Positions 14,135 to 16,088 of a DNA stretch of 64,000 nt are shown one piece after another. Under the pieces are notes generated by a model, which was not told the origin of the DNA, did no database searches, and was given only the letters and a program-made list of their open reading frames with translations. A program made the position numbers and the translations under genes. Numbering within the stretch: the stretch's first letter is position 1; each line of letters opens with the position of its first letter. Origin of the DNA: an uncultured Alphaproteobacteria bacterium (GTDB lineage Bacteria > Pseudomonadota > Alphaproteobacteria > RF32 > CAG-239); contig CALYAW010000001.1 of assembly GCA_944393685.1 (NCBI GenBank), forward strand, positions 224,023 to 288,022. The letters run 5' to 3'.

Positions 14135-15061
14135 ATGACAGATATTACCGCAGCTATGGTAAAAGAATTAAGAGAATCAACAGGAGCCGGTATGCTTGAT
14201 TGCAAAAAGGCATTGGTTGAAACTAACGGCAACATGGATGAAGCAGTAGATTGGCTGCGCAAAAAAGGTCTGGCTTCTGCCGCAAAGAAAGCTAGTCGTA
14301 TTGCTGCCGAAGGTCTCGTTTCTGTTCATGTTGAAGGCAATAAAGGAGCAGTTGTAGAAGTTAACTCCGAAACAGATTTTGTTGCCAAAAATGAAATCTT
14401 TCAAGAATATGTCGCCGATGCCGCTATTGTTGCTTTGAAGAGCGCTGGCGAAATTTGCGATATGAAAACATTCCATTGTCCCAAATGTGGCAAAACATTT
14501 GAAGAACGCCTAACAGATATGATTGCCAAAATCGGTGAAAATATGACCTTGCGCCGCGCTGCCATGATAGAGGTAAAAGAGGGTGTTGTTGCTCCATATA
14601 TTCACAGCGCTTCCGCCCCCAACATTGGCAAAATAGGTGTTTTGGTTGCTTTGGAATCTTCTGCTGACAAAGCTAAATTATCTGAGTTAGGCAAACATAT
14701 CGCCATGCACGTTGCTGCTTCAGCACCTTTGTTTCTCAATATAGCAAGTGTTGATCCGGCAGCAGTTGAACACGAGAAGTCAATTTTTGCCGAACAGGCA
14801 AAAGCATCTGGAAAACCGGAAAACATCATTGAAAAAATGGTTGAAGGCCGCGTTCGCAAATACTATGAAGAGGTTGTTCTTGAAGAGCAGGCTTACATCA
14901 TGGATCCTGACAAAAAAGTTAAGGATGTTATTGCTGAAGCAGCCAAAGATTTGGGAACAGACATCAAATTGAGTGGTTTTGTTCGTTTCAAATTAGGTGA
15001 AGGTTTGCAGAAGAAAGAAGAGGATTTTGCAGCAGAAGTTGCTTCTCAACTTGGCAAATAA
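14135..15061 (+). CDS. tsf: Elongation factor Ts
   Basis: Nucleotide exchange factor for EF-Tu. N-terminal UBA-like part with the conserved STGAGMLDCKKAL and LRKKGLASAAKKASR; core motif VEVNSETDFVAKN contacts EF-Tu. The 308-residue length is typical. Odd: around residues 110-122 the core contains FHCPKCGKTFEERL, a CxxC preceded by His, where most alphaproteobacterial EF-Ts has a Gly/Thr-rich stretch. A strong terminator follows. Confidence 0.98.
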   Translation: MTDITAAMVKELRESTGAGMLDCKKALVETNGNMDEAVDWLRKKGLASAAKKASRIAAEGLVSVHVEGNKGAVVEVNSETDFVAKNEIFQEYVADAAIVALKSAGEICDMKTFHCPKCGKTFEERLTDMIAKIGENMTLRRAAMIEVKEGVVAPYIHSASAPNIGKIGVLVALESSADKAKLSELGKHIAMHVAASAPLFLNIASVDPAAVEHEKSIFAEQAKASGKPENIIEKMVEGRVRKYYEEVVLEEQAYIMDPDKKVKDVIAEAAKDLGTDIKLSGFVRFKLGEGLQKKEEDFAAEVASQLGK

Positions 15062-15079
15062 ATCTTTTATCCTGAATGG

Positions 15080-15107
15080 AAAAAGCCCCTCTCGCGAGGG
15101 GCTTTTT
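15080..15107 (+). terminator. Rho-independent terminator of tsf
   Basis: AAAAAGCCCCTC/GAGGGGCTTTTT hairpin with a TCGC-type loop and a T5 tail. A textbook terminator closing rpsB-tsf. Confidence 0.95.
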
Positions 15108-15210
15108 CAGTAATCAGAGATCAGTAATTAGTGATTAGTTTCAGAAGCATGATGGTTTAATAACAATGCTTTCTCCGCCCTAATCCCTGGTCTCTGACCT
15201 CTGATTACTG
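15108..15210. repeat. Inverted-repeat element made of degenerate heptamers
   Basis: Two 31-base arms (15108-15138 and 15180-15210) are imperfect reverse complements, identical over their outer 12 bases (CAGTAATCAGAG) and inner GATTAG. Each arm is a run of degenerate 7-mers (ATCAGAG, ATCAGTA, ATTAGTG, ATTAGTT). The 41-base centre has its own weak stem (GAAGCAT with ATGCTTTC). It starts directly at the tsf terminator and ends about 110 bases before a GC-rich gene. This looks like a small non-coding mobile or REP/MITE-like element; no transposase is present. Confidence 0.65.
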
Positions 15211-15320
15211 TCCTCCCATTTTGTCAATCTGACCGATGATTTATTGTTGACTTATTTTGCGAATTGTCCGATAATGGTTAAAGAATGTGTTTCTGTTTCC
15301 ACTTTTGAGGATGTTTCGAT

Positions 15321-16088
15321 ATGTCTCGTCTGTCTTTGTCTTATCTCTTTCTCTCCTCTGCCGCCGTTTTGTTGGTCGCTGCGGCAGAGGCCTCCGCTCA
15401 ATCTTGCACAACCGCTCCGAGCTGCGCCGAACTCGGATACACTTCCGCGGTTGCTGATTGCGTCGGTCCTGACATGGTCTATTGTCCGTTTGACAATACC
15501 AAGGTCTTTTGTCGTCAGACCAAAAGTTGCGAAGAGCTCGGTTATGACAAAACCACAACTCAATGCTCCGGCAAAAAAACTTTTGTCTGCCCCGGCGATG
15601 CCTCAAAAGTCTCCTGTGACAGCGGCGCCATGGTTGGTGAAATCAGACTCTGGGCCGGAAGCTCCATTCCCAAAGGCTGGCTGAAGTGCGAAGGTCAGTC
15701 GCTGTCTTCTTCGACCTACAAAGAGCTTTACAACGCCATCGGCACGGCCTATGGCGGCAACAGCACAAACTTCTATTTGCCGAACTTCAAAGGGCGCGTT
15801 CCGGTCGGCGTCGGCTATGCCACCAGTTCGCTCTATACCTATTCGCGCGGTTCCAAGGGCGGTGAAGAAAAACATACCCTGACAATCAACGAAATGCCAA
15901 GGCACTCGCACAATTACACGATTTATTCTCCGGGTTCAAAGGACCGGCAGAGATATTCGGGAAAAAGCAATAACGATAGCGATACGGATGAGGTCCGGAC
16001 AACCGCTTCTGCCGGCGGCAACAGCGCGCACGAAAACCGCATGCCGTATCTGGCAGTTTATTATATCATTTACACAGGAGTATACTAA
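15321..16088 (+). CDS. Exported Cys-rich-repeat protein with phage tail-collar domain
   Basis: 255 residues in three parts: a signal peptide (about 1-26, ending AAEASAQS); two Cys-rich repeats (about 27-100) of the form C-x-ELGY...C...C-P-x-D-x-x-K-V-x-C; and a tail-collar domain (about 104-255) with GEIRLWAGSSIPKGWLKCEG, FYLPNFKGRVPVGVG, EMPRHSHNY and the end PYLAVYYIIYTGVY, all collar signatures. Codon use is much richer in G+C than the neighbours (38 of 60 bases at 15361-15420). Collar domains normally belong to phage tail fibres; here a secretion signal and repeats suggest a cell-surface or secreted binding protein. It sits alone, next to the heptamer inverted repeat. Probably acquired by transfer. 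Confidence 0.85.
   Translation: MSRLSLSYLFLSSAAVLLVAAAEASAQSCTTAPSCAELGYTSAVADCVGPDMVYCPFDNTKVFCRQTKSCEELGYDKTTTQCSGKKTFVCPGDASKVSCDSGAMVGEIRLWAGSSIPKGWLKCEGQSLSSSTYKELYNAIGTAYGGNSTNFYLPNFKGRVPVGVGYATSSLYTYSRGSKGGEEKHTLTINEMPRHSHNYTIYSPGSKDRQRYSGKSNNDSDTDEVRTTASAGGNSAHENRMPYLAVYYIIYTGVY

Follow-up and report, generated by a model that had tools for sequence, protein, structure and literature searches.

A phage-type collar gene beside tsf belongs to a dispersed family of predicted exported Cys-repeat proteins in Alphaproteobacteria

We analysed a 64,000-nt stretch of DNA (the window) from an uncultured alphaproteobacterium (genome G000; 1.46 Mb, 12 contigs), in which an intact coding sequence of 255 codons lies between tsf and a convergent reading frame, orf186. 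The neighbours of this gene are tsf and, on the other side, orf186/NUDIX, rather than the tail or baseplate genes that accompany gp12-like fibres. The features of the locus are the following.

14135..15061, + strand: tsf (elongation factor Ts), left flank, 96% identical in the congener G019
15079..15108, + strand: tsf terminator, a 13-bp perfect stem with a T tail
15108..15210, no strand: imperfect inverted repeat of 31 nt (CAGTAATCAGAGATCAGTAATTAGTGATTAG), loop of 41 nt, lying between tsf terminator and promoter
15221..15276, + strand: family promoter element TTGTCAA...GATTTATTGTTGAC-N15-TCCGATAAT
15247..15275, + strand: sigma-70-type promoter TTGACT-N17-GATAAT
15307..15311, + strand: ribosome-binding site GAGGA, 9 nt 5' of the ATG, kept in several paralogues
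15321..16088, + strand: Cys-repeat/collar gene, 255 aa
15321..15398, + strand: signal peptide, residues 1-26 (from sequence)
15423..15512, + strand: Cys repeat 1, residues 35-64, with an extra Cys at residue 29 (repeat profile)
15528..15617, + strand: Cys repeat 2, residues 70-99 (repeat profile)
15636..15803, + strand: collar domain PF07484, residues 106-161 (Pfam)
15903..15911, + strand: H-x-H motif, residues 195-197, kept in type I collars
15912..16028, + strand: variable head, residues 198-236, with the highest dN relative to L054
16102..16662, - strand: orf186, convergent right flank, directly abutting tsf in eight congeners (empty site)

The inverted repeat is present as a single copy within the window. 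We considered it as a family-wide mobile element and rejected this idea, as it was unique to the window locus among the loci compared, apart from a half-like stretch in a congener's locus (L056), upstream of the family gene there.

The first-pass annotation had described a signal peptide, two Cys repeats and a complete collar domain within a single 255-residue protein, and this description was confirmed: the reading frame was exact, and the alignment to PF07484 covered positions 1-57 of 57 (E 1.2e-22, 80 bits, curated cut-off 24). Beyond Collar, Pfam returned a sub-cut-off match to Gp10_C and two chance-level matches, and no match to an Lcl_C head. The two repeats (C35-C64 and C70-C99, with C29 as one extra leading Cys) fit C-x11-C-x7-C-P-x7-C and matched a profile made from 33 repeats with E values of 5.9e-15 and 3.5e-13; the pattern C-x2-LG[YF]-...-C-x6/7-CP-x-D-x5-C was thus present together with a signal peptide. 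Read from the sequence, that signal peptide is MSRLSLSYLFLSSAAVLLVAAAEASA followed by Q, with an A-S-A/Q end typical of Sec substrates, and neither a lipobox nor a transmembrane anchor was seen in the protein. Only four codons are open upstream of the ATG (open frame 259), and the start codon and signal peptide position are kept both across paralogues of divergent sequence and in the G019 orthologue L054, so that a mis-start, which the first-pass annotation had named as one way for its adhesin idea to fail, can be set aside. The signal is of the SPase I type in our reading of the sequence.

In a fast first look with one Pfam model each, we found no match in G000 to secretin (PF00263, whose model matched 6 of 14 controls), DsbB or VKOR. 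With no secretin detected, neither a type II secretion route nor a secretin-dependent pilus route would be available, and surface display is uncertain; an outer-surface location would need another route, e.g. vesicles, and the protein may reside in the periplasm or in vesicles. Disulfides in the Cys repeats are plausible. Exported Cys-rich proteins are numerous in the genome, which also encodes two DsbA-like proteins bearing C-x-x-C, yet no DsbB or VKOR match was obtained for a disulfide oxidase.

The C-terminal tip of the protein is gp12-like. Collar and tip together resembled T4 gp12 in sequence (6e-7, PDB sequences), and the fold matches were 1ocy (1e-4) and 5iv5. As in this short tail fibre (1ocy, 5iv5, PF07484), the collar is followed by a C-terminal tip, but T4 gp12 belongs to the virion and has neither a signal peptide nor Cys repeats, whereas the gene described here stands alone with its own promoter. 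With respect to the trimeric beta-fibre and H-x-H-bound metal of gp12-like proteins, we found an H-x-H at residues 195-197 and a tip of pLDDT < 50 in a monomer model. This AlphaFold model, built from 15 sequences, had a pLDDT of 62 and a pTM of 0.41, and was confident only in the repeats (stretches with pLDDT about 70-80) and in the collar core (80-88); its global TM-scores were low (0.27), and the fold reading is limited to the collar core. The low pLDDT of the tip could be expected if its folding needs an intertwined trimer.

The Cys repeat is a constant module within a much more varied set of proteins. Its spacing, C-x11-C-x6/7-C-x8-C, was kept in 57 of the 66 repeat units collected, which is far beyond chance. 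In the search of alphaproteobacterial genomes that the first-pass annotation had proposed, the repeat profile had matches in 33 of the 35 congeneric genomes, as many as 26 in a single one, the repeat was present in 3 of 3 sampled genomes of the same bacterial family outside the genus, and none of the 380 genomes of other Alphaproteobacteria gave a match. For other phyla, the sole cover was a peptide-pattern scan of genome contigs, which found no Cys region outside this group. Pfam, NCBIfam and PDB sequences yielded no significant match of the repeat to a named family, and a search of 50,697 phage records with the repeat sequence returned chance-level matches only (E = 8). This distribution suggests that the repeat is confined to one family of mostly gut-derived bacteria. 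The closest named relative is MAG RGIG4730, recovered from roe deer rectum; this MAG appears to represent the G019 genome, judging from the identical match coordinates and identities. The literature searched on collar domains with secreted, cysteine or microcystin-dependent proteins yielded no description of the family, and the family-restricted exported module is apparently new and undescribed in the libraries searched.

Copy number and partner domain both varied. Among 99 distinct repeat-bearing open frames, counted with a strict pattern and including some that end at contig ends, 68 had one repeat, 28 had two, two had three and one had four, in line with the variation in copy number that had been suggested as a check. 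Of 62 members scanned for heads, 17 carried Collar and 11 carried Lcl_C, and because these members bear Collar, Lcl_C and other partners, it is the head that varies while the Cys module stays constant. The repeat was also seen in proteins without a known head, and at C-termini. Separately, a GxxLYxDxxCY...IGVVF(D) head recurs in L040, L090, L097, L099, L102 and similar repeat proteins of many congeners, and some family proteins match Lcl_C; within the genus, the Cys module seems to be paired with this head very often.

Rather than being a singleton, the collar gene of the window is one of a multigene family, with about 12 repeat-bearing genes in G000. These genes are scattered, solitary or paired, and most adjoin housekeeping genes; homologues of kdtA and lon, dnaJ, pheT, era, flgF or alr are neighbours of the collar-bearing paralogues and of one pair. 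Of the eight collar genes in G000, seven encode Cys-repeat proteins and only one is a phage tail gene, contrary to the case, raised in the first-pass annotation as fatal to its idea, that homologues always sit inside prophages. The prophage collar gene (L024:4317-5123) lies amid tail and lysis genes, and its product shares the collar (29% identity to the window protein) but contains a segment resembling a YadA stalk (sub-cut-off in Pfam) and no signal peptide or Cys repeats. The window gene is not a phage gene.

Several further members of this set deserve mention. The L021 copy is decaying, with 92% DNA identity to the L018 copy, a partly deleted signal peptide and a cut 3' end; this decayed copy of the L018 collar gene (L021:4900-5695) adjoins flagellar genes, and at the counterpart site in G019 (L061) there is a family gene that the end of the contig truncates. 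The collar paralogue L017:5066-6034 bears a C-terminal zinc-ribbon-like CPICG...CFTCG tail (Zn_ribbon_3, 1e-4, below cut-off), which is unusual in an exported protein. A second group of exported proteins, large (418-424 aa) and rich in Cys, is encoded at L018:11187-12461, L022:4618-5874 and L023:3821-5080, with the N-terminus ...DIQWLPKYQEKLVSRKRVSDAKNP, one Cys repeat at the end, a GC3 of 0.42-0.44 (above the window mean) and no Pfam match in the two scanned. Each of these genes directly precedes a smaller repeat-protein gene, forming three two-gene units.

Many family members share a conserved region of about 100 bp at their 5' side (TTGTCAA-N10-GATTT-N3-GTTGACA-N17-GATAATAA). A search for the promoter-element pattern with up to 3 mismatches gave 12 matches, five in G000 and seven in G019, and none in the other 33 congeners; the reversed pattern, used as a control, gave none. 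All five G000 copies are upstream of family genes, as are those of G019 save one at a contig end, where no gene was readable. At the tsf site of another congener, G032, the promoter was related but diverged. When the window gene was compared with the G019 genes L056, L057 and L059, which have other heads, identity in the signal peptide was 93-96% at the protein level and 94-95% at the DNA level, but fell in protein to 64% in repeat 1, about 40% in repeat 2 and about 20% in the tip or head. In exported proteins, few parts are usually less conserved than the signal peptide; its near-identity here therefore suggests that the family genes have undergone recombination or homogenisation at their 5' end.

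The collar domains themselves fell into two types, split by a branch with 100/99 support in a tree that was rooted at its midpoint and has several long branches. Type I comprises the collars of the window gene, L016, L017, L054, L055, L026 and L058, and groups with ordinary collars of a cyanobacterium, a Flavobacterium, other bacteria and a virus; type II comprises L018-L020, L056, L057, L059 and most of the genus. Both types occur in G019 behind the same 5' cassette, and because unrelated 3' parts, including two collar lineages, share this one cassette, exchange of heads between the two lineages is well supported by the sequence comparison. In the comparison with L054, the variable head had a dN of 0.28 against 0.03-0.14 in the other well-sampled parts, a weak contrast resting on about 27 synonymous sites.

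The composition of the gene, which the first-pass annotation took as a sign of transfer on the strength of a G+C count (38 of 60 bases at 15361-15420) that is correct, was examined further. Its GC is 0.522 and its GC3 of 0.574 exceeds that of every other gene among the 52 in the window (mean 0.315, sd 0.059, z 4.4), whereas collar-bearing paralogues in G000 have a GC3 of 0.30-0.34 and genes read in the high-GC relative G019 are mostly at 0.55-0.75. Between G000 and G019, the core genes kdtA, era, lepB, rnc and relA/spoT are saturated (pS 0.75-0.85; tsf 0.61) and family orthologues at syntenic sites have a pS of 0.74-0.79. The pS of the window gene was 0.42 to L054 and 0.50 to the G019 paralogue L055, vs 0.75 to its own-genome paralogue L016, and third bases at conserved residues matched at 0.74 vs 0.41-0.63 in core genes. 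The flanks of L054 are other genes that do not match those of the window. In eight congeners (G058, G016, G021, G033, G015, G008, G003 and G025) tsf abuts the orf186 homologue; elsewhere G019 has a different small insert in this gap, and only G032 also has a collar gene there, 54% identical to the window gene. The foreign GC3, the low pS to a high-GC congener and the empty site in eight congeners indicate a recent crossing between species, the simplest reading being that the gene was acquired from a high-GC congener at an insertion-tolerant gap between convergent genes. It is possible that an older copy at the tsf-orf186 site was replaced by the donor allele. The suggestion of transfer thus stands, with a congener as the source; a phage donor was rejected, as synonymous sites and GC3 fit the high-GC congener. 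In G019 itself, an AT-rich 437-aa gene (L054:1606-2919, GC 0.34) adjoins the collar gene and was probably also transferred.

Another known system for comparison is the Legionella adhesin Lcl, whose Lcl_C is a trimeric glycosaminoglycan-binding domain (PMC11162425). Lcl (Lcl_C, PF07603; PMC11162425) is exported and has a constant stalk with a C-terminal trimeric ligand-binding head, and 11 sister proteins place Lcl_C on the same Cys module; unlike Lcl, the window protein has no collagen-like repeats and bears a collar head, and no secretin for type II secretion was detected in G000. The stand-alone bacterial collar protein C24 of Bizionia argentinensis (6ov6) was a weak fold match (E 0.4), and the Dysgonomonas collar genes L060 and L062 matched at 36-43% with no Cys-repeat module seen; C24, L060 and L062 all stand outside the multi-head, shared-promoter family. 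Of three viral contigs with relatives, L066 and L068 matched the collar or tip part only, and L067 matched at 26% over residues 20-252, without the Cys repeat.

Taken together, these observations are best explained, with a probability that we put at about 0.55, by a family of exported binding proteins that carry interchangeable, probably trimeric heads on a Cys-repeat module. In this model the protein would be exported by Sec, as its sequence supports, and the Cys repeat would be a constant, family-restricted, compact module, probably a disulfide-stabilised stalk or docking unit or a multimerisation unit. The collar and variable tip would form an exchangeable head that probably trimerises as in T4 gp12 and, by the same analogy, probably binds a glycan or other surface ligand of the cell surface or host. 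The species would keep a dispersed, independently promoted gene set with differing heads, refreshed by recombination in the conserved 5' cassette and by transfer between congeners. Trimerisation, ligand binding, disulfides, extracellular location and adhesion are properties that we infer for the protein, and the adhesin idea of the first-pass annotation is a reasonable hypothesis.

The alternative that survives best, though we consider it unlikely, is that these are periplasmic or envelope-structural proteins in which peptidoglycan or outer-membrane partners are what the Cys module docks to, and the collar does no more than trimerise, with no external ligand. The lack of a detected secretin or anchor behind a simple Sec signal is consistent with this, as is the occurrence of the repeat at C-termini and without a known head; however, the heads are diverse and swapped, and the tip is the fastest-changing part, which fits a variable ligand and not a constant structural role. 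Doubtful, and offered tentatively, is an extension of the binding-protein model in which the family would be a transferable repertoire of exported phage-type tips, with one promoter/signal-peptide/Cys-stalk cassette and recombined heads of several phage-type or glycan-binding lineages, used for binding host and bacterial glycans or for masking the cell's own phage receptors.

That exported phage-type tips serve as an anti-phage mask or decoy, occupying the cell's own phage receptors to block adsorption with one head per receptor, seems improbable. The heads are members of the receptor-binding collar family of phages, and their multiplicity, their transfer between species and the prophage with its own collar in the same genome would suit such a role, but there was no PADLOC match at E 0.1, the same module bears Lcl_C and other non-phage heads, and the resident prophage collar is only distantly similar. 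Still less probable, in our judgement, is that the Cys repeats bind metal rather than form disulfides, to which the undetected DsbB and VKOR and chance-level matches to a CHHC zinc-finger profile (E 0.15-0.43) lend something, while export of the protein, the two C-x-x-C DsbA-like proteins and the even number of Cys per repeat argue against it. A domesticated prophage tail-fibre remnant left in place is very improbable and was rejected: although the best-matching PHROG families are tail proteins, the neighbours are not phage genes, the gene has its own promoter, signal peptide and Cys repeats, the repeat is absent from phage records beyond chance, and the tsf-orf186 junctions of the eight congeners are empty of any phage trace.

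Collar genes are usually annotated as phage and are easily counted as prophage remnants, but here they encode the heads of an exported bacterial family whose genes are scattered, have separate promoters, have diversified and have moved between species. What is new is that one promoter/signal cassette precedes exchangeable heads of both phage type and Lcl type, with at least one recent interspecies move. For bacteria known mostly from metagenomes, this result provides concrete candidate binding proteins, and the small Cys-repeat module is usable as a probe for further members.
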